Below are positions 1-8,901 of a stretch of 42,387 bases of DNA, in pieces. The first letter of the stretch is position 1. Every line of letters begins with the position of its first letter. Below the pieces are notes generated by a model. It worked only from the letters and a program-made list of their open reading frames with translations, was not told the origin of the DNA and searched no databases. Origin of the DNA: Blastococcus mobilis (GTDB lineage: Bacteria; Actinomycetota; Actinomycetes; Mycobacteriales; Geodermatophilaceae); assembly GCF_900188025.1 (NCBI RefSeq), contig NZ_FZNO01000034.1, positions 1-42,387 on the forward strand, read 5' to 3'. The position numbers were made by a program, and so were the translations under genes.

Positions 1-75
1 ACCGATCCGCTCGAGCACCTTCTCCAGACCCACGGCCCAGTCCTCGACCTCGGCCACGGTCACATCTTCGACCAT
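1..75 (-). CDS. N-terminal end of a possible IS701-type transposase (partial, runs off left edge)
   Basis: Reading leftward from ATG at 75 gives an open frame of 25 residues, MVEDVTVAEVEDWAVGLEKV and a few more, continuing past the window edge. The pattern of a Trp followed by a Leu-rich amphipathic helix ending in an ERIG-like turn resembles the start of actinobacterial IS701-family transposases, which usually continue with an RFxRxEPR segment. That diagnostic segment lies outside the window, so the call rests on a short resemblance. A CTAG tetranucleotide at 152-155 fits the YTAR-type target reported for IS701 elements and could mark the element end, but no terminal repeat could be verified. 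It could equally be an unrelated small gene divergent from ettA. Confidence 0.35.
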   Translation of the reverse strand, partial: MVEDVTVAEVEDWAVGLEKVLERIG

Positions 76-257
76 CCCGAGACAGTCGTGACCTCGAAGC
101 CCTCAACCCAGTAGACACACCGCAGCCGACAAGACAGGTGCGGCTGTAGTACTAGTTGCCCCGGGCTGGGAGGATCGGACACGAGAACGCACGGGGTGGG
201 GCCGCCGACCGGCGGCCCTGCCCCCGCTCGCGAGACGACGGAAGGCTCCGAAGCCCA

Positions 258-1928
<1,671 letters not shown>

Positions 1929-1939
1929 CCCGTCGGGTT

Positions 1940-1965
1940 GCCGGGGGGCGTGCGCGCCCCCCGGC
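1940..1965 (+). terminator. Perfect 11-bp stem hairpin after ettA
   Basis: The left arm GCCGGGGGGCG (1940-1950) pairs perfectly with CGCCCCCCGGC (1955-1965) around a TGCG loop, 11 nt after the ettA stop. No U-tract follows, as is usual for GC-rich actinobacterial terminators. It probably ends or attenuates ettA transcription before the thioesterase gene. Confidence 0.7.
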
Positions 1966-1988
1966 AGCCGTGCGGCAGGGTGTCGCCC

Positions 1989-2402
1989 GTGAGACACACG
2001 GTGCACGTCCCCATGCGCTGGTCGGACATGGACGCCTACCAGCACATCAACAACGTGGCCTTCCTCGACTACTTCGAGATGGCCCGCGTCAACCTCTTCT
2101 TCGAGCACCCCACGCACGACGAGCAGACCGGCATGCGCCGCGGCCTCGTCGTCCACTCGCACGAGATCGCCTACAAGCGTTCGGTCCTCTACGACGCCGA
2201 GCCCCTGGAGATCCAGATCTGGGTGTCCGGCATCCGGGCCGCGTCCTTCACGTGCCACTACGAGCTCTTCGACCACGGCCGGCTCGCCGTCACCGGCAGC
2301 ACGGTCCTCGTCCCGTTCGACTTCGCCCTCGAGCGCCCGCGGCGCATCACGCCGGAGGAGAAGGAGTTCCTCGCCCGCTACACCGACGAAGCGGCGGCCT
2401 GA
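1989..2402 (+). CDS. Acyl-CoA thioesterase, 4-hydroxybenzoyl-CoA thioesterase-like hotdog fold
   Basis: A protein of 137 aa expected to hydrolyse acyl-CoA thioesters in the cytoplasm. The N-terminus has the family motif MRWSDMDAYQHINNVAFLDY, whose Asp aligns with the catalytic Asp of the 4HBT family. A central helix and a strand pattern typical of a single hotdog domain follow. GTG at 1989 was chosen because it directly precedes the conserved RHTVHVPMRWSD start and has GGCAGGG upstream; an earlier in-frame start would add an unconserved Pro/Arg-rich segment inside the hairpin region. Substrate chain length cannot be read from sequence. It is followed after 97 nt by an acyl-activating enzyme and a thiolase-like gene, so a link to acyl-CoA turnover is plausible, though the family often simply accompanies ettA. 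Confidence 0.85.
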   Translation: MRHTVHVPMRWSDMDAYQHINNVAFLDYFEMARVNLFFEHPTHDEQTGMRRGLVVHSHEIAYKRSVLYDAEPLEIQIWVSGIRAASFTCHYELFDHGRLAVTGSTVLVPFDFALERPRRITPEEKEFLARYTDEAAA

Positions 2403-2499
2403 CGCGGCCATGCCACGAGCGCACCGGCCAGCGCGTCGTCCGCCCGGACCCCGGAACGAGAGTCCCCTGGCCACCCCCGGACGGAGTGGAGGGCAGGAC

Positions 2500-3537
2500 A
2501 TGCCCCCCGTCCGGGAGATCGCGTCGGCGCCGGACCCCGTGGCGGCGGTCCTGAACGCGCACGAGCACGGCGAGCTCATCTCACTGCCGACGTCCGGGAC
2601 GACGAGCCGACCACGGTCGGTCGTCCGCACCACCGCGTCCTGGGTCGACTCCTTCGCTCACGTCTCGCGCCTGACCGAGATCGACGGGTGCTCACGGGTA
2701 TGGGTGCCCGGGCCGCTGGCGGCGACGATGAACCTCTTCGCCGCCGTCCACGCCCGCATGGTCGGCGCGATCCTGGTGGATACACCGGAGGAGGCCACAC
2801 ATGCACACCTCACCCCGGCGACTCTGCTGACCGCCCTTGGCGGCGGCGCCGACCTGCGGGGTGTCCACGTCGTCGTCGCCGGCGATCGGCTCTCGCGCGA
2901 CACGGCCGCGCGCGCCCGCGCGAGCGGTGCTCGCACCAGCCACTACTACGGGGCAGCGGAGCTGTCCTTCGTCGCCTGGGGAACCCACGAGGAGGACCTG
3001 CAGCCTTTCCCCGGCGTCGAGATCGAGATCCGCACCGACACCATCTGGGTGCGCTCGCCCTATCTCTCCCTGGGATACGACCGTTCCCTGGAATACGACC
3101 ATGGCGCTGACGGCCCGTTCGCCGTGGACGACGCCGGGTTCGCCACCGTGGGCGACCGCGGCAGTCTCGAGCAGGGGCTCCTCACCGTCGCCGGCCGCGG
3201 AACCGCGATGGTCCTGACCGGCGGGGTCACCGTGCTGGTGGCGGACGTGGAGCAGGCGCTGCGGCGCGCCACCGGGAGCGATGTCGTCATCGTCGGCGTA
3301 CCGCATCGCCGTCTCGGCCAGGTGGTCGGCGCAGTCGTGACCGAACCGGCGGCTGCGGCGCGGATCCGGTCGGTGGCGCGGGCCGAACTGGCGTCGGCGC
3401 AGCAGCCCCGGCTGTGGTTCGCCGTGCCATCGTTTCCCGTGACCCCGAGCGGCAAAGTCGACCGCATCGCCCTGTCGGCCATGGCGGCGAACGGGCAGCT
3501 GACAGCTGTCACCTCGTCGAGCCGGAGCAAGTCGTGA
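2500..3537 (+). CDS. Compact AMP-forming acyl-CoA ligase-like protein (ANL superfamily), N-terminally short
   Basis: An adenylate-forming enzyme of 345 aa, versus roughly 480-550 for ordinary acyl-CoA ligases. Recognisable elements are the phosphate-binding loop TSGTTSRPR (residues 31-39), YYGAAE (149-154, A5 motif), GDRG with a following GR (218-221, 232-233, A7/A8) and PSGKVDR with Lys319, the usual catalytic lysine. About 150 residues that normally precede the P-loop are absent, and the loop has Ser and Arg where TGxPK is usual. ATG at 2500 was chosen because GGAGGGCAGG-like sequence precedes it and the upstream extension is low-complexity Pro/Arg. The next gene starts inside its stop (GTGA), so the two are translationally coupled. 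The closest contextual analogue is YhfT of Bacillus, beside bioY. MenE is an alternative family but nothing menaquinone-related is nearby. Confidence 0.75.
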   Translation: MPPVREIASAPDPVAAVLNAHEHGELISLPTSGTTSRPRSVVRTTASWVDSFAHVSRLTEIDGCSRVWVPGPLAATMNLFAAVHARMVGAILVDTPEEATHAHLTPATLLTALGGGADLRGVHVVVAGDRLSRDTAARARASGARTSHYYGAAELSFVAWGTHEEDLQPFPGVEIEIRTDTIWVRSPYLSLGYDRSLEYDHGADGPFAVDDAGFATVGDRGSLEQGLLTVAGRGTAMVLTGGVTVLVADVEQALRRATGSDVVIVGVPHRRLGQVVGAVVTEPAAAARIRSVARAELASAQQPRLWFAVPSFPVTPSGKVDRIALSAMAANGQLTAVTSSSRSKS

Positions 3538-4679
3538 GCCGCTTCGACGACATGCCCGTACTGATAGCGGCCCGGCGGACACCCATCGGGACGGCGGGCC
3601 GCTCCCTGGCGGCGCTCACCGCCGCCGACCTCGCCGCACCGGTCATCAGGGCTCTCGCCGATGAACTCCAGCCCGCTGCGCGGGCCAACCTCCGCGACGT
3701 CGTGCTCGGGAACTGCATGGGACCCGGCGGCGACGTCGCGCGGGTCGCGGCGCTGCAGGCCGGGCTCCCGGTCGGCGTCCCAGGCCTCACGGTCGACCGG
3801 CAGTGCGGCAGCGGTCTGGCCGCCGTCGTGCTCGCCATCTCGATGCTGCGAGCGGAGCCGGGAGTCGTGCTGGCCGGGGGAGTGGAGTCCGCCTCCACCG
3901 CGCCGTGGCGCTCCTGGCCGCCGGTCGACGGCGGTCCGCCGACCCGCTTCCAGCGCGCCCCGTTCGCGCCGGCCGGCTGGGCCGATCCGGACATGGGACC
4001 GGCCGCCGACCTGCTCGCCCGCGAGCACGGCGTCCACCGCCGCGCCCAGGACGAGTACGCCGCGCGCTCGCACGCCCGCGCCGTCGCCACCCAGCAGGCC
4101 GGCGGGTTCGACGCAGAGATCGTGCCTCTCGGCGCCGTCAGCACCGACGACCGGCCCCGCTCGGGCCTGTCGGCGGAGCGGCTCGCCCGCCTGCGCCCGG
4201 CCTTCCTGCCCGACGGCACCGTCACCGCCGGCAACTCCTGCGGTGTGAACGACGGCGCCGCCGTGGTCACCGCTGTCGACGCCGCCACGCATCGCCGCCT
4301 GGGAGTGCCCGGCCTGCGGGTGCTCGCCACCGCGACCGCCGGTGTCGCCCCCGATCGACCCGGCCTGGGCATCGTCCCGGCCACTCGGCTCGCTCTGGAC
4401 CGAGCCGGCCTGACGCTCGACGACATCGACGTGATCGAGTTCAACGAGGCCTTCGCCGGGCAGGTGCTGGCCTGCTGCGCCGCGCTCGGCCTCGACCCCG
4501 CACGCGTGTGTCCCGAGGGCGGAGCCCTGGCGCTCGGTCATCCGTGGGGTGCCTCCGGCGCGGTCCTCGCTGTCCGGCTCTTCGCGCAACTGGCCGGCCG
4601 TCCCGGCGGCTACGGCCTCGCCGCGATCGCCGTCGGCGGAGGCCAGGGCGTCGCGATGGTGGTGCAGCGCTGCGGTTGA
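3534..4679 (+). CDS. Thiolase-family protein lacking the second catalytic cysteine
   Basis: A thiolase-fold protein of 381 aa. Nucleophile loop DRQCGSG places Cys91, NEAFAG and ALGHPWGASG carry the conserved Asn and His, but the fourth loop reads AIAVGGGQG where thiolases have CxGGGQG: the acid/base cysteine is Ala (codon GCC). In characterised thiolases that cysteine activates the attacking thiol or enolate, so normal Claisen condensation or thiolysis should be impaired. The protein may act as an acyl-transferase-like or thiolase-like enzyme with altered chemistry. GTG at 3534 overlaps the ligase stop by 4 nt, with GGAG 7 nt upstream. It converges with the MOSC-bioNMY genes, leaving only 25 nt between stops. 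YhfS, beside bioY in Bacillus, is the contextual analogue. Confidence 0.8.
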   Translation: MSRFDDMPVLIAARRTPIGTAGRSLAALTAADLAAPVIRALADELQPAARANLRDVVLGNCMGPGGDVARVAALQAGLPVGVPGLTVDRQCGSGLAAVVLAISMLRAEPGVVLAGGVESASTAPWRSWPPVDGGPPTRFQRAPFAPAGWADPDMGPAADLLAREHGVHRRAQDEYAARSHARAVATQQAGGFDAEIVPLGAVSTDDRPRSGLSAERLARLRPAFLPDGTVTAGNSCGVNDGAAVVTAVDAATHRRLGVPGLRVLATATAGVAPDRPGLGIVPATRLALDRAGLTLDDIDVIEFNEAFAGQVLACCAALGLDPARVCPEGGALALGHPWGASGAVLAVRLFAQLAGRPGGYGLAAIAVGGGQGVAMVVQRCG

Positions 4680-4704
4680 GCGTTCGTTCGGAGCCGCGGT
4701 GCGG

Positions 4705-5235
4705 TCAGACCCGCCGGGGAACGGGGGCGTCGGCTCCGACCGGCGCCCCGCGCCGGGCCGCCTCGCCGTCGGAGAGCGGCCGGATGACGGCCCCCTCGGC
4801 GATCTCCGCGCCGGCGAACACGGCTGCGTTGATCCCGCCGCGATGCAGCATCGCTTTCACCAGCCGCGCGCCGATCAGCCGTTCGAGGTGAGTGCACGGC
4901 GGACAGCGCTTCATCCCGAACAGCAGCGCATCCCCGACGGCGAACCACCGTCCCACCAGCGCGGGCAGGTCCACACCCACGGTCACGAGGTTGCGCCGGG
5001 TGTCGCCGGGCAGCAGATCCACCCCCACGTCCGCGGCGACGGCGGCCACGTCGTCCCGGTCGATCAGCGTCAGCTGCTTCTCCAGGTCCGGGTACTGGGC
5101 CCAGGTGCCCCCGCCGAGCGCGTAACGGTCGCCGTCCAGTCCCGCGCCGGCCACCAACTGCCCGGTGGGCACGCGGCGCATCGGCGCGGCCGCGGTCCCG
5201 GTCAGCCAGATCTCCGTGAGGACGCCCCCGGTCAC
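4705..5235 (-). CDS. MOSC-domain protein, last gene of the bioYMN operon
   Basis: A protein of 176 aa, essentially a lone MOSC domain (YiiM-like). The N-terminal IWLTGTAAAPMRRV leads to GLDGDRYA, then the MOSC core RRNLVTVGVDL, KRCPPCTHL and HRGGINAAVF. The conserved cysteine sits in RCPPC, the usual sulfur- or molybdopterin-ligating position. MOSC proteins act in molybdenum-cofactor sulfuration or as small Moco-dependent reductases of N- or S-oxidised compounds. GTG at 5235 overlaps the bioN stop (GTGA), so it is coupled to the biotin transporter. A role in reducing an oxidised biotin vitamer or in a sulfur step is an inference from operon position only. The RCPPC pair of cysteines is worth noting. 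Confidence 0.8.
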   Translation of the reverse strand: MTGGVLTEIWLTGTAAAPMRRVPTGQLVAGAGLDGDRYALGGGTWAQYPDLEKQLTLIDRDDVAAVAADVGVDLLPGDTRRNLVTVGVDLPALVGRWFAVGDALLFGMKRCPPCTHLERLIGARLVKAMLHRGGINAAVFAGAEIAEGAVIRPLSDGEAARRGAPVGADAPVPRRV

Positions 5236-5885
5236 GTCGTCCGCACGCTGTCGACCGCCGCGCGCCGACCGGGTCGGCGGGCGGTGACGTCGCCCGCTCC
5301 CCGGGCGTCGAGCGCCTCGCCGACCGTGGTCGCCATCCGCAGCACCTGCACGAGCAGCGGCACGACCATGGCCGGCCGCACCCGGTCGGCGCCCCGTGCC
5401 GCCTGGGCCTCCCTGATGCGGGCCGCCCGGTCCGCGACCAGCGGGATGAACCGCAGTGTCATCGCGATGACCAGCCCGATCCGCCCGGGGCGCACCCCGA
5501 ACACCCGCAGCGGCGACGTCAGCCACTCGATGACCGCCACCAGCGCCGTCACCCGCGTCGTCGCGGTCACCACGGCGGCGGCGATCACCAAGGTCAACAG
5601 TCGGAGCACGGCGACCGCGCCGACGAGCGGGCCGGTCACCAGCAGGTGGAAGCCGAACAGTGCGACCAGCCAGATCCACACCGGTCGCACCTGCGAGAGC
5701 AGTGCCCGGCGCGGCAGCCGCGCCCAGAGGAGCCCGGCAGCGAGCACGAGCACGAACGCGGCGGCCACCACCACGAGGCGCGCGGTCGCGAACAGCGCCA
5801 GCCCGAGCAACGCCAGCACGGCGAGCTTCACCCCCGCGGGCGCCCGGTGCACGTGGGTGGTCCCCGGCACGTACAGCGACTGCAT
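5232..5885 (-). CDS. bioN: Biotin ECF transporter transmembrane subunit BioN (EcfT)
   Basis: An integral membrane EcfT-type coupling protein of 217 aa. Several hydrophobic segments occupy residues about 20-115, followed by a cytoplasmic coupling region with the two EcfT motifs, EAQAARGAD and ALDARGAGD (the A-x-x-A-R-G pattern that docks on the ATPase). Its length and order behind bioY and bioM match the bioYMN arrangement known from Corynebacterium. The ATG overlaps the bioM stop by one base (TGATG), and the downstream MOSC gene overlaps its own stop, indicating a single polycistronic message. Confidence 0.88.
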   Translation of the reverse strand: MQSLYVPGTTHVHRAPAGVKLAVLALLGLALFATARLVVVAAAFVLVLAAGLLWARLPRRALLSQVRPVWIWLVALFGFHLLVTGPLVGAVAVLRLLTLVIAAAVVTATTRVTALVAVIEWLTSPLRVFGVRPGRIGLVIAMTLRFIPLVADRAARIREAQAARGADRVRPAMVVPLLVQVLRMATTVGEALDARGAGDVTARRPGRRAAVDSVRTT

Positions 5886-6622
5886 CAGCTCATCCTCGCC
5901 GCGTACCAGGGCACCGTCTCGGCCGGCGGGCCGTCCGCGACCACGCGGCCGTCCTCGAACACCAGGACGCGGTCGAACCCGTCCAGCAGGTCGAGGTGGT
6001 GGGTGACCACGACGGCGTCCTGTTCCAGCGCGTCGATGACCCGGGACACCCGCCGGGTGTTGGCCAGGTCCAGCAGCGTCGTCGGCTCGTCGAACACGAT
6101 CCGCTGGGGCTGCATGACCAGGACGCCGGCGATCGCCAGCAACTGCTTCTGCCCGCCGCTGAGCAGGTGCGCGGGGTGGTCCCGGTGCCCCGCCAGGCCG
6201 TAGCGAACGAGCATCTCGTCGACCCGCCGCGCGGTCTCCTCGGCAGGCAGGCCCTGGTTGTGCGGCCCGAACGCCAGGTCCTCCTCGACCGTCGGGTGCA
6301 CGATCTGCGCGTCCGGGTCCTGGAAGACGAAGCCGACCCTGCGGCGCACCTCCCGGCCCTGCGTGCGGGTGTTCAGGCCGTCGACCAGCACGGTGCCCGT
6401 GGAGGGCACCACCAGCCCGTTGAGCAGACGGGCGAACGTGCTCTTGCCCGACCCGTTCCCACCGATGACGCCGATCCGGCGCTCGGTCAGGGTCAGCGAG
6501 ACATCCGTGAGAACGGGGCGGTCGCCATAGAAGTGGGCGACGTCGCGCAGTTCGATCGCCGTCCGCGGGAGGGTGGCCGCCGAGGCCGCGGTCGCGGCCT
6601 CAGCACGCCGTCCCCACCGCAC
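5885..6622 (-). CDS. bioM: Biotin ECF transporter ATPase BioM (EcfA)
   Basis: A cytoplasmic ABC ATPase of 245 aa that energises biotin uptake. It has Walker [11 protein letters not shown]-loop [10 protein letters not shown], signature [13 protein letters not shown], Walker [14 protein letters not shown] and switch His in VVVTHH. The FQDPDAQ loop is typical of ECF-family ATPases. GTG at 6622 is used; GAGG lies 6-7 nt upstream, just after the bioY stop. The roughly 20 residues before the conserved [11 protein letters not shown] start are Ala-rich and unconserved, so an alternative start a little further in cannot be excluded. A single ATPase gene implies a homodimeric module. Confidence 0.9.
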
Positions 6623-6639
6623 CGAGAACCTCAGGGTCG

Positions 6640-7206
6640 TCAGCCGGCCGTCGCGCGCCGGGTAGGCAGATCGATGACCGGATAGGCCTTGTGGACGGCC
6701 ACGGCGACCAGGGACGCCGCCACCGCCTTGACCACGTCACCCGGGATGAAGGCGAACGCTCCGGTGAACGACGTCCAGAGTGGGATGTCCGCGTAGAGGC
6801 TGGTGAACGGGATGCCGATCGCGTAGATGACCAGCAGGCCGCCGATCAGATTGGCCACCAGGGCCCAGGCGAGGTTGTACCGCCGCCAGAACAGCTGGGT
6901 GAGCAGGCCGATGACGAAGGCCGCGATCGGCCAGCTGTACAGGTATCCGGCGGACGGCCCGACGAAGACGCCGAGCCCTCCACGGCCGCCGGAGAGAACC
7001 GGCAGCCCGACCGCGACCACCGCGAGGAACGCCAGCAGCGCCAATCCGCCCCGGCGCGCACCGAGCACCGAGCCGGCCAGCATCACGCCCAGGGTCTGCG
7101 CGGTGATCGGCACCGGGATCCCTGGCACGGGCACGGGCGGCAGCAGCCCCAGCACCGCCACGATCGCGGCGAAGAGTGCGATGTAGGCGAGGTCCTTGGT
7201 CTTCAC
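6640..7206 (-). CDS. bioY: Biotin-specific S component BioY
   Basis: A membrane substrate-binding S component of 188 aa with about six hydrophobic helices. BioY hallmarks are present: [20 protein letters not shown] near the N-terminus, then [25 protein letters not shown] and [15 protein letters not shown], and a C-terminal [14 protein letters not shown]. It captures extracellular biotin and passes it to BioMN. GTG at 7206 follows AGGAGA at 7213-7218. A TAGTTT hexamer on the minus strand at 7262-7267 may be the -10 element of the operon, giving a leader of about 50 nt. No clear BirA- or BioQ-type operator could be recognised in the 108 nt upstream. Confidence 0.92.
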
Positions 7207-7277
7207 GGCAGATCTCCTGGTGGCAGGCCCGCGTCAGCGTCCGGGCGTCGTCGTCGCCCGGAAACTACCGGAGCCCC

Positions 7278-7302
7278 CGGGATCGGATTCGGCGTGATCC
7301 CG
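7278..7302 (-). terminator. Hairpin downstream of the GH13 gene
   Basis: CGGGATC and GATCCCG form a 7-bp perfect stem around an 11-nt loop, 12 nt after the GH13 stop codon and upstream of bioY. It probably terminates the GH13 message. It also lies where the bioY promoter -35 region would be, so a regulatory role is possible. Confidence 0.4.
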
Positions 7303-7314
7303 TGATCGACCGTT

Positions 7315-8901
7315 TCAGGCCTGCAGCCACACCGCCGTGTCGTCCGGGAGGGTCCCGCCGCCGACGGCGGAGCTGGCCAGCAGCACCCGGCCCTCCGGCA
7401 GTGGCACCGCGGTTCCGGAGAGGTTGACCAGGCACACCAGCCCGCTGGGACGGCGGAACGCGAGGCAGCCCTCGGGCGCCGGCAGCCACTCCAGCTCCTC
7501 GCCCCCGAAGGCCGCGGACGACCGCCGCAACGCCAGGGCACTCCGGTACAGCGACTGTATCGACGAGGGATCCGCCGCCTGGGCCTCCGCGGTGAGCCCG
7601 CCCCAGCCCTCCGGCATCGGCAGCCAGGTGTCGGGTCGCGACGAGAACCCGTACGCGGGTTCGGTGCCCGACCACGGCAGCGGGATGCGGCAGGCGTCGC
7701 GGCCCCGTTCGGCGTGGCCCGACCGCTCCCACATCGGGTCCTGCAGCGCCTCGTCGGGCAGGTCGACGTCGGGCATCCCGAGCTCGTCCCCGTTGTAGAG
7801 GTAGGCGGCTCCGGGCAGGGCCAGCTGCAGCAGGGCGGCCGCCCGGGCGCGCCGCAGGCCGAGCTCACCACCGCCGTACCGGGTCACGTGCCGGGGCCGG
7901 TCGTGGTTGGAGAGCACCCAGCACGCCGGTGCCGGCGTCCCGGCCACCGTGGCCAGGGAGTGGCTGACCGCCTGGCGCAGCGCGTCGGCGGTCCAGTCCG
8001 CGGTGAGCAGCTTGAAGTTGAACGCGAGCTGGAGCTCGTCCTCGCGGAGGTACTGGGCGAGCCGGTCGTCGTCGGAGACCCAGACCTCGCCGACCGCCAT
8101 GGTCCCCGGGTACTGGTCGAGCACCGCGCGGATGCGGCGGTGCACGACGTGCACGCCGTCCTGGTCGAAGCGCAGGTCACCGGGGCCGTGGTCGTCGAGC
8201 AGCCCGGTGTCCTCCATCGGCACCATGTCCGGCAGGCCGTCCGGCTTCGCCATGCCGTGGGCGACGTCGATGCGGAAGCCGTCGACGCCGCGGTCCAGCC
8301 AGAACCGCATCGTCTTCTCGAGGTCGGCGACCACCTCCGGGTCGGCGAAGTTCAGGTCGGGTTGCTCCGGAGCGAAGATGTGCAGGTACCACTGGCCGTC
8401 GGGCACCCGGGTCCACGCCGGGCCGCCGAAGACCGAGGGCCAGTTGTTCGGCGGCTCGCTGCCGTCGGGGCCCCGGCCCGCCCGGAACAGGTAGCGGGCG
8501 CGCTCCGGCGATCCCGGCGCCGCCGCCAGTGCCGCCCGGAACCACTCGTGGTCGTGCGAGCTGTGGTTGGGGACCAGGTCGATGGTCACTCGCAAGCCCA
8601 GCCCGTGGGCGTCGGCCAGCAGGGCGTCGAACTCGTCGAGGTCGCCGAACACCGGCTCGACGTCCCGCGGGTCGGCGACGTCGTAGCCGTGGTCGGCCAT
8701 GGGCGACGGGTAGAACGGCGTCATCCAGAGGGCGTCGACGCCGAGGTCGGCGAGGTACGGCAGCCGGCTACGGATGCCGGCGAGGTCGCCGACGCCGTCA
8801 CCGTTCCCGTCGGCGAAGCTGCGGACGTAGATCTGGTAGAAGACCGCGTCCCGCCACCAGTCGGCGGACTCTGGCAGGACGGCGTTCGGGCGCGCGTGCA
8901 C
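7315..8901 (-). CDS. GH13 alpha-glucosidase (oligo-1,6-glucosidase/AglA-like)
   Basis: A cytoplasmic retaining alpha-glucosidase of 528 aa, with no signal peptide. The (beta/alpha)8 barrel starts at WWRDAVFYQIYVRSFADG. GH13 motifs follow: DLVPNHSS (region I), GFRIDVAH with nucleophile Asp212 (II), VGEVWV with acid/base Glu272 (III) and LSNHDRPR with Asp334 (IV). A small C-terminal beta domain ends the protein. The QPDLNF segment before region II is characteristic of alpha-glucosidases rather than endo-amylases; linkage preference is not readable. GTG at 8901 has GAGGAG 5 nt upstream. It lies behind the mscS-MFS-glbO chain, separated by a palindromic repeat, and ends before a hairpin. Confidence 0.9.
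   Translation of the reverse strand: MHARPNAVLPESADWWRDAVFYQIYVRSFADGNGDGVGDLAGIRSRLPYLADLGVDALWMTPFYPSPMADHGYDVADPRDVEPVFGDLDEFDALLADAHGLGLRVTIDLVPNHSSHDHEWFRAALAAAPGSPERARYLFRAGRGPDGSEPPNNWPSVFGGPAWTRVPDGQWYLHIFAPEQPDLNFADPEVVADLEKTMRFWLDRGVDGFRIDVAHGMAKPDGLPDMVPMEDTGLLDDHGPGDLRFDQDGVHVVHRRIRAVLDQYPGTMAVGEVWVSDDDRLAQYLREDELQLAFNFKLLTADWTADALRQAVSHSLATVAGTPAPACWVLSNHDRPRHVTRYGGGELGLRRARAAALLQLALPGAAYLYNGDELGMPDVDLPDEALQDPMWERSGHAERGRDACRIPLPWSGTEPAYGFSSRPDTWLPMPEGWGGLTAEAQAADPSSIQSLYRSALALRRSSAAFGGEELEWLPAPEGCLAFRRPSGLVCLVNLSGTAVPLPEGRVLLASSAVGGGTLPDDTAVWLQA

Follow-up and report, generated by a model that had tools for sequence, protein, structure and literature searches.

What do an acyl-activating enzyme and a thiolase-like enzyme do beside a biotin transporter? 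The question is raised by a stretch of Blastococcus mobilis DNA (contig NZ_FZNO01000034.1, positions 1 to 42,387; hereafter the window), in which the genes at issue occupy 2500..7206 and encode an AMP-forming ligase and a thiolase-fold enzyme that face BioY, BioM and BioN, the components of an energy-coupling factor (ECF) transporter, and a MOSC-domain protein. An earlier interpretation made from the letters of this DNA (the sequence-only reading) had suggested that, if BioY, the ligase and the thiolase recur together in distant phyla, they would be parts of a pathway acting on a biotin precursor, a biotin breakdown product or a related acyl chain. Here a conserved module of BioY, an acyl-activating enzyme and a thiolase is firmly established in Actinomycetota, Bacillota and Alphaproteobacteria, and a function in the repair of a shortened biotin vitamer is tentatively proposed.

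Ligase and thiolase genes are linked to bioY in three phyla

The survey covered 150 genomes of the window's order. With a threshold of E at most 1e-20 for the ligase, and a hidden Markov model built from 13 sequences for the thiolase family (carriers scoring at least 417 bits), the ligase was found in 30/150 genomes, the family thiolase in 29/150 and BioY in 87/150. BioY was present in all 29 thiolase carriers, compared with 58/121 other genomes (Fisher p=1.8e-8). A count of co-occurrence within 10 kb, proposed as a check by the sequence-only reading, placed the thiolase that close to BioY on one contig in 28 of the 29 carriers, the exception being G031. A further genome (G144, 375 bits) was not counted as a carrier; its match and BioY are 700 kb apart, and its inclusion would make the count 28/30. 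Genome G122 has a ligase-like gene and no family thiolase. The order bioY-ligase-thiolase-bioM-bioN, in one direction, was seen in 15 of 20 wider fetched stretches, and the convergent order of the window is common to G113 and G071, of the same family.

Outside the order, named genomes were scanned with one degenerate DNA pattern. The pattern was deliberately AT-biased, so the 75 loci recovered are no census; they brought in Bacillota with bioY-ligase-thiolase. Azospirillum plasmids carry bioM-bioN-bioY-ligase-thiolase followed by a major facilitator superfamily (MFS) transporter gene, and a Sinorhizobium meliloti record contains bioMNY, the ligase (unannotated there and found by blast) and the thiolase, together with a thioesterase and a medium-chain dehydrogenase/reductase (MDR). 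The latter two genes are added in 4/6 annotated alphaproteobacterial regions. The recurrent link anticipated between distant phyla is therefore real, and a neighbourhood confined to close relatives is excluded.

The MFS gene is directly 3' of the thiolase in both Azospirillum plasmids (L033, L159) and is annotated as two pieces in L159; in a Paenibacillus locus (L057:528-3739) the bioY and thiolase frames are split in the record. In Rhizobium plasmids (L032, L160, L161) the order is thioesterase-ligase-thiolase, accompanied by a LysR gene and a divergently oriented MDR reductase gene, with no bioY in the stretch shown. In Paenibacillus of the polymyxa type, L097 combines a Cys378-less thiolase (see below), a ligase and a FabG-like gene with an adenine-deaminase-like amidohydrolase, a glycosyltransferase and an MFS transporter (Pfam), and L103 has genes of similar size (only sizes were compared) with a BioN-profile match upstream; these two are perhaps a natural-product offshoot of the module.

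The thiolases of the module have lost a catalytic base

The window thiolase was best matched, after the general model TIGR01930, by PRK06690, which we take to represent the YhfS family, at 313 bits against a curated cut-off of 498; five other family thiolases likewise had PRK06690 as best specific model, below its cut-off. An AlphaFold2 (AF2) model (predicted local distance difference test score, pLDDT, 95.7) has a confident thiolase fold, and its nearest solved folds are classical CoA thiolases. In the published account, Cys89 is the thiolase nucleophile, Asn316 and His348 form the oxyanion hole and Cys378 is the base that takes the substrate proton (PMC3406046). The window enzyme has Cys91, Asn304 and His336 in place of Cys89, Asn316 and His348, and Ala366 in place of Cys378.

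To place this substitution, matches of at least 250 aa were collected in an alignment of 107 sequences, B. subtilis YhfS itself being absent from the set, and a tree was calculated for 100 of them after seven loci were dropped as duplicates or incomplete. The Cys378 position is Gly, Ala or Ser in 79 rows and Cys in 20, and one row is incomplete there. The Cys378-less thiolases form one 80-row clade (Shimodaira-Hasegawa-like approximate likelihood-ratio test 99) that includes the window thiolase and the staphylococcal and other Bacillota members, and a single change accounts for the pattern. Loss of Cys378 is thus firmly a trait of the whole clade. The 20 rows that retain Cys378 comprise nine paralogues from the window genome, which has only one BioY match, that of the window, and 11 from fetched loci.

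All BioY-linked thiolases that could be scored sit in the Cys378-less clade. BioY was found in 0/10 fetched Cys378-bearing loci (3/10 with <2 kb upstream) and in 23/50 Cys378-less named loci. Among the 27 Cys378-less loci without BioY, 14 have <2 kb of upstream sequence and 13 have more; the latter are from Staphylococcus (9), Rhizobium (1), Paenibacillus of the polymyxa type (2) and a metagenome bin (1).

The short ligase retains its catalytic residues

The best NCBIfam match of the window ligase was PRK07638, presumably the YhfT family, at 113 bits against a curated cut-off of 518, followed by PRK07824 (87 bits, cut-off 345). PRK07638 was also the best specific model, below cut-off, for three of four other family ligases, the fourth (L035) scoring marginally higher with PRK06187. 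The likeness to the B. subtilis yhfUTS operon drawn by the sequence-only reading therefore holds at the level of best specific models for both enzymes, although the scores stay below the cut-offs of those models. A complete N-terminal domain is absent, with the P-loop at residue 31 of 345, whereas in Bacillota ligases the P-loop lies ~115-175 residues from the open-frame start; the short form is common to other actinobacterial ligases. The AF2 model (pLDDT 84.7) is nearest to the solved folds of MenE and MatB, with TM-scores up to about 0.6. The P-loop TSG (31-33), E154 (adenylation), D219 (TGD-type), R233 (hinge) and K319 (catalytic) are all kept, at positions invariant in 22 sequences. With its catalytic equipment retained, the short ligase is predicted not to be a dead enzyme.

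Both enzymes had been called aberrant and the locus, on that ground, possibly a distinct variant. The ligase does lack its N-terminal subdomain and the thiolase its Cys378, but the catalytic residues of the former are intact and the loss in the latter is clade-wide; as other actinobacterial ligases are short too, the idea of a distinct variant is not supported.

Bacillota loci add reductase and dehydratase genes

In many Bacillota loci the thiolase gene is followed on its 3' side by genes for a ~126-aa FAS1_DH/HadA-like hotdog protein, a ~114-aa MaoC/HadB-like protein and a ~270-aa FabG-like reductase, assigned with Pfam and NCBIfam on ten representatives. In several Paenibacillaceae and Lysinibacillus, ECF transporter genes come next after the FabG-like gene. 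The Asp..His pair of the HadB-like protein is kept in 15/15 rows, and the TGxxxGIG and S..YSAAK motifs in 12/13 FabG-like reductases. A profile search located all three genes in 10 loci; because the profiles were built from such loci, this count describes and does not test, and the HadA-like profile was weakened because 1/15 sequences (L048) was in the wrong frame. In Staphylococcus, two small open reading frames (ORFs) 3' of the ligase-thiolase pair (L100, L059, L054, L086, L109) resemble degenerate HadA/HadB-type subunits. The second ORF matched the HadB-like profile with E 5e-7 to 6e-5; the five first ORFs, which are VraC-like, were rejected as HadA on weak matches (E 3e-5 to 0.11; both from a 10-sequence file). 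No Pfam or NCBIfam model matched the small-ORF pair of L100, the pair tested.

Acyl-CoA dehydrogenases mark degradation. The two Cys378-bearing relatives that were checked (L053, L072) adjoin an acyl-CoA dehydrogenase and short-chain dehydrogenases/reductases (SDRs). The second, from Halobacillus massiliensis, brings together a Cys378-bearing thiolase, an acyl-CoA dehydrogenase, HadA/HadB-like proteins, SDR-profile matches, a thioesterase and a ligase without BioY, and is a degradative-looking sister of the module. No acyl-CoA dehydrogenase was identified by Pfam among the operon genes of the BioY branch, for which some of the flanks were scanned. We infer that the BioY branch dropped the two degradative marks, the dehydrogenase together with the thiolytic base, and retained an (R)-type dehydratase and a reductase suited to synthesis.

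Module BioY proteins carry an arginine in the presumed biotin site

In the solved BioY 4dve, residues N79, R93, D160 and K163 are presumably the biotin contacts. The position of Asn79 is Arg in 58/58 module BioY rows, from three phyla, versus 4/38 non-module rows, which were drawn from the order only (40 regions from 58 BioY-bearing non-carrier genomes, two genomes twice) and otherwise have A, S, G, T, I, K or M. Equivalents of Asp160 and Lys163 are present in almost every module and non-module row, and Arg93 is conserved in neither group. In the window BioY the D160 and K163 equivalents are kept, N79 is replaced by Arg and R93 by Leu.

Biotin synthesis and regulation in carriers

In the window genome, which is 99.99% complete, neither BioB nor BioA exceeds its cut-off, and BioD has no match. 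BioB exceeded its cut-off in 93/150 genomes of the order, and was missing from 21/29 carriers versus 36/121 others (p=3.5e-5). BioF was dropped as a marker of auxotrophy because 0/150 genomes reached its curated cut-off. In 33 further carriers, mostly Bacillota, hand-chosen from the 75 pattern-scan loci and partly drafts of no given completeness, BioB was present in 23/33 and absent from 10/33. Since the module occurs with and without BioB, its general function cannot be to make the pimeloyl moiety of biotin.

For Bacillota, 29 upstream regions hand-chosen from the 75 loci were scanned with the BirA-type box consensus as we assumed it to be. A box agreeing at >=14/18 positions (at least 14) lies upstream of 19/29 operons, against 7.8% of shuffles, and is perfect in five Paenibacillaceae. 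In actinobacteria, a dyad search returned TGAAC-N3-GTTCA, which we take to be BioQ-like, in 4/25 regions, a count that the best of 10 shuffles also reached with 5-base arms; a 10/10 match occurs in 4/24 regions, and 0.2% of shuffles reach 9 or more. Co-regulation, on which the sequence-only reading had staked part of its case, thus appears in the Bacillota carriers through putative BirA-type boxes; in the window, a BioQ-like site was sought and not found.

A possible route from a shortened vitamer to biotin

Bisnorbiotin is a common beta-oxidation remnant of biotin. We tentatively favor, as somewhat short of an even bet, a pathway in which an imported biotin vitamer with a short chain is lengthened by two carbons under biotin control, the most likely conversion being that of bisnorbiotin to biotin. 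BioY with BioMN would take up the shortened biotin-like acid, in the likeliest case bisnorbiotin, and the ligase would convert it to its CoA thioester. The thiolase-fold enzyme would load the acyl group on Cys91 and join a two-carbon unit to it. Without the base Cys378, the enzyme would probably not draw its enolate from acetyl-CoA but would gain it, like a ketoacyl synthase, by decarboxylating malonyl-CoA, a step that would pull the reaction in the synthetic direction. One cycle to biotin could then be completed by four further activities: a FabG-like ketoreductase, a HadAB-like (3R)-dehydratase, an enoyl reductase and a thioesterase. Many Bacillota encode the first two in the operon; in actinobacteria they would presumably be supplied by genes elsewhere, and the window genome has seven MaoC-type matches over cut-off, none of them tied to the module. 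Expression of the module would be expected under biotin scarcity. One such elongation would most simply explain why a ligase, a Cys-His-Asn enzyme, a ketoreductase and a dehydratase stand beside a biotin S-component and are kept in genomes without BioB. Among the substrates originally offered, a pimelate-like precursor is unlikely given the lack of BioB, BioD and BioA over cut-off, and the best fit is a breakdown product whose side chain has been shortened.

The wider claim is a salvage pathway of a kind undescribed in the papers searched, in which bisnorbiotin is rebuilt by one fatty-acid-synthesis-like cycle, the Cys378-less thiolase is a malonyl-CoA condensing enzyme and the change of BioY Asn79 to Arg matches the shorter acid; taken as a whole, it is doubtful. 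No such pathway was reported in the open-licence PubMed Central (PMC) papers, subscription journals being outside that search.

Several observations weigh against elongation. The literature searched reports no assay of any module enzyme. Ligase-thiolase pairs without adjoining bioY occur in Staphylococcus, Rhizobium and Paenibacillus of the polymyxa type. Several BioY-linked Bacillota loci have part or none of the HadAB/FabG-like set (for example L039 and L104, with >1.4 kb downstream); the actinobacterial clusters, that of the window included, show no HadAB-like and no adjacent FabG-like gene. In Rhodococcus-like thiolases Asn316 is replaced as well, by Thr or Val, a change that may be incompatible with a ketoacyl-synthase mechanism, and many of these thiolases carry a Cys one place before the lost Cys378. 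The Arg of BioY is not independent on the tree: only 3 supported pairs contrast (sign test median p 0.5), so it may be shared by descent. Enrichment of the module in biotin auxotrophs was dropped as proof because, within BioY-bearing genomes, the lack of BioB is not significantly commoner among carriers (21/29 carriers vs 34/58 non-carriers, p=0.24). No operator was found in the window, where two promoter regions match the BioQ-like site at 6/10 only and BirA-type boxes were not scanned.

Four other explanations were weighed. The thiolase-fold enzyme might act as a transacylase: the ligase would make biotinyl-CoA or a related acyl-CoA, trapping the acid inside the cell, and the Cys378-less enzyme would pass the acyl group from Cys91 to another thiol or an amine. 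Acyl-enzyme formation is still possible without the base, and ligase and BioY share one operon, but the ketoreductase and dehydratase genes of Bacillota are left unexplained, and we regard this as unlikely. Equally unlikely is a biotin-sparing bypass, in which the module makes or reshapes fatty acyl chains by another route when acetyl-CoA carboxylase fails in biotin shortage and is co-regulated with uptake while never acting on biotin. The BirA-type boxes and the resemblance of the enzyme set to fatty acid elongation agree with a bypass; it predicts neither the Arg found in every module BioY nor so strict a link to a transporter, and the Cys378-less enzyme should not use acetyl-CoA, while biotin shortage would itself remove malonyl-CoA.

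Lengthening of glutarate or another shorter diacid to pimeloyl-CoA would take a single elongation cycle, and 23/33 further carriers, mostly Bacillota, have BioB. Against this stand the window genome, with no BioD match and neither BioB nor BioA over cut-off, and the 21/29 order carriers without BioB; pimelate synthesis is unlikely in the window genome, which lacks both BioB and BioD, and such a supply role seems very improbable overall. Least probable of all is catabolism, with the module cutting back the side chain of biotin or of an analogue. Beta-oxidation draws on ligase, thiolase, hydratase and dehydrogenase families too, and two Cys378-bearing relatives sit in clusters of that kind, but the thiolytic base is missing, and BirA-type control predicts expression in biotin shortage.

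The finding of one Cys378-less clade, in which matching dehydratase and reductase genes and a distinctive BioY often accompany the thiolase, offers a concrete and cheap test of the module's role. If the salvage proposal is true, products of biotin breakdown could sustain many biotin auxotrophs, and the enzyme would be a natural example of a thiolase whose function changed when a single residue was lost. S. aureus during colonization is one setting in which the role of the system matters (PMC11730646).

Layout of the window locus

From left to right, the plus strand carries ettA (named from its sequence, without a family search), a 4HBT thioesterase, the ligase and the thiolase-fold gene, and the minus strand then carries MOSC, bioN, bioM and bioY (Table 1). 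The ligase (345 aa) starts with ATG, preceded by GGAGG, and the thiolase (381 aa) with GTG; the ligase stop and the thiolase GTG overlap by 4 nt in GTGA, and the convergent thiolase and MOSC stops are separated by 25 nt. The genes, the coupled pair and the convergent gap are all as the sequence-only reading described them. Pfam cut-offs were exceeded for AMP-binding and AMP-binding_C, Thiolase_N and Thiolase_C, MOSC, CbiQ (BioN), ABC_tran (BioM) and BioY, and the BioY, ATPase and CbiQ-type subunits are adjacent in one direction, as in a BioMNY transporter.

Table 1. Coordinates of features at the ligase-thiolase-bioYMN locus of the window
Feature	Position	Strand	Evidence
Acyl-CoA ligase, YhfT type (ANL family), short, without N-terminal subdomain	2500..3537	+	Pfam, NCBIfam, catalytic residues, AF2
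YhfS-type thiolase-fold enzyme without second catalytic cysteine	3534..4679	+	Pfam, AF2, clade
Cys91 codon, equivalent to the Cys89 nucleophile of Z. ramigera thiolase	3804..3806	+	alignment
Asn304 codon, Asn316 equivalent	4443..4445	+	alignment
His336 codon, His348 equivalent	4539..4541	+	alignment
Ala366 codon, in place of catalytic base Cys378	4629..4631	+	alignment; pairwise vs two solved thiolases
MOSC-domain protein, start overlapping bioN end	4705..5235	-	Pfam MOSC
bioN, EcfT-type transmembrane coupling subunit	5232..5885	-	Pfam CbiQ
bioM, ATPase subunit	5885..6622	-	Pfam ABC_tran; best NCBIfam ECF_ATPase_1 below cut-off
bioY, substrate-binding (S) subunit	6640..7206	-	Pfam BioY over cut-off; aligns with solved BioY 4dve
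BioY Arg75 codon, in place of 4dve Asn79	6982..6984	-	alignment

Two neighbors were considered and rejected as members of the module. The thioesterase (1938-2402) was rejected because EttA and the thioesterase adjoin, within 1.4 kb, in 10/10 same-family loci without a ligase alongside (L146-L151, L153, L155-L157; L154, which has a ligase match, was left out). The MOSC gene was rejected because it adjoins bioN in a genome without ligase and thiolase (L185); the arrangement there (L185:4418-4918) is like that of the window, and MOSC may have a link to biotin transport of its own. In three related, module-free genomes (L182, L186, L187), a lone and different BioY (34-36% identity), with no bioMN match beside it, lies between ettA-thioesterase and a glycosidase gene, as if the transporter had been swapped (compare window 1-8901).

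Comparison with known systems

In B. subtilis, bioY is presumably the yhfU gene of the yhf operon. Earlier reports describe yhfT-yhfS as BirA-controlled in S. aureus as well as in B. subtilis, with putative functions only (PMC7235819, PMC11089781, PMC6391492). The window pair resembles yhfT-yhfS in its ligase and thiolase families, judged by best specific model, and in the association of these families with biotin control; staphylococcal members of the clade also lack Cys378. Unlike yhfT-yhfS, the window pair converges on bioYMN rather than sharing one operon with bioY, its ligase is short and its cluster has no HadAB/FabG-like genes. In length the ligase is closer to the short MenE-type ligase (PRK07824, 362 aa), its second-best match, but it scores far below that cut-off, with 87 of 345 bits. 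The thiolase shares the fold and the Cys89, Asn316 and His348 equivalents of the Zoogloea ramigera biosynthetic thiolase, whose base Cys378 corresponds to Ala366. By keeping Cys, His and Asn without the second cysteine, it resembles ketoacyl synthases of the Cys-His-Asn type, and by hypothesis it would carry out a similar reaction; its nearest solved folds are nonetheless those of classical CoA thiolases, and decarboxylation is hypothetical here. In the bioYB2 operon of Paracoccus denitrificans, BioY likewise lies beside an enzyme suggested by the authors of that study to turn an imported vitamer into biotin, but the enzyme there is BioB, which acts on desthiobiotin, in contrast to the acyl-activating and condensing enzymes of the module (PMC4554459).

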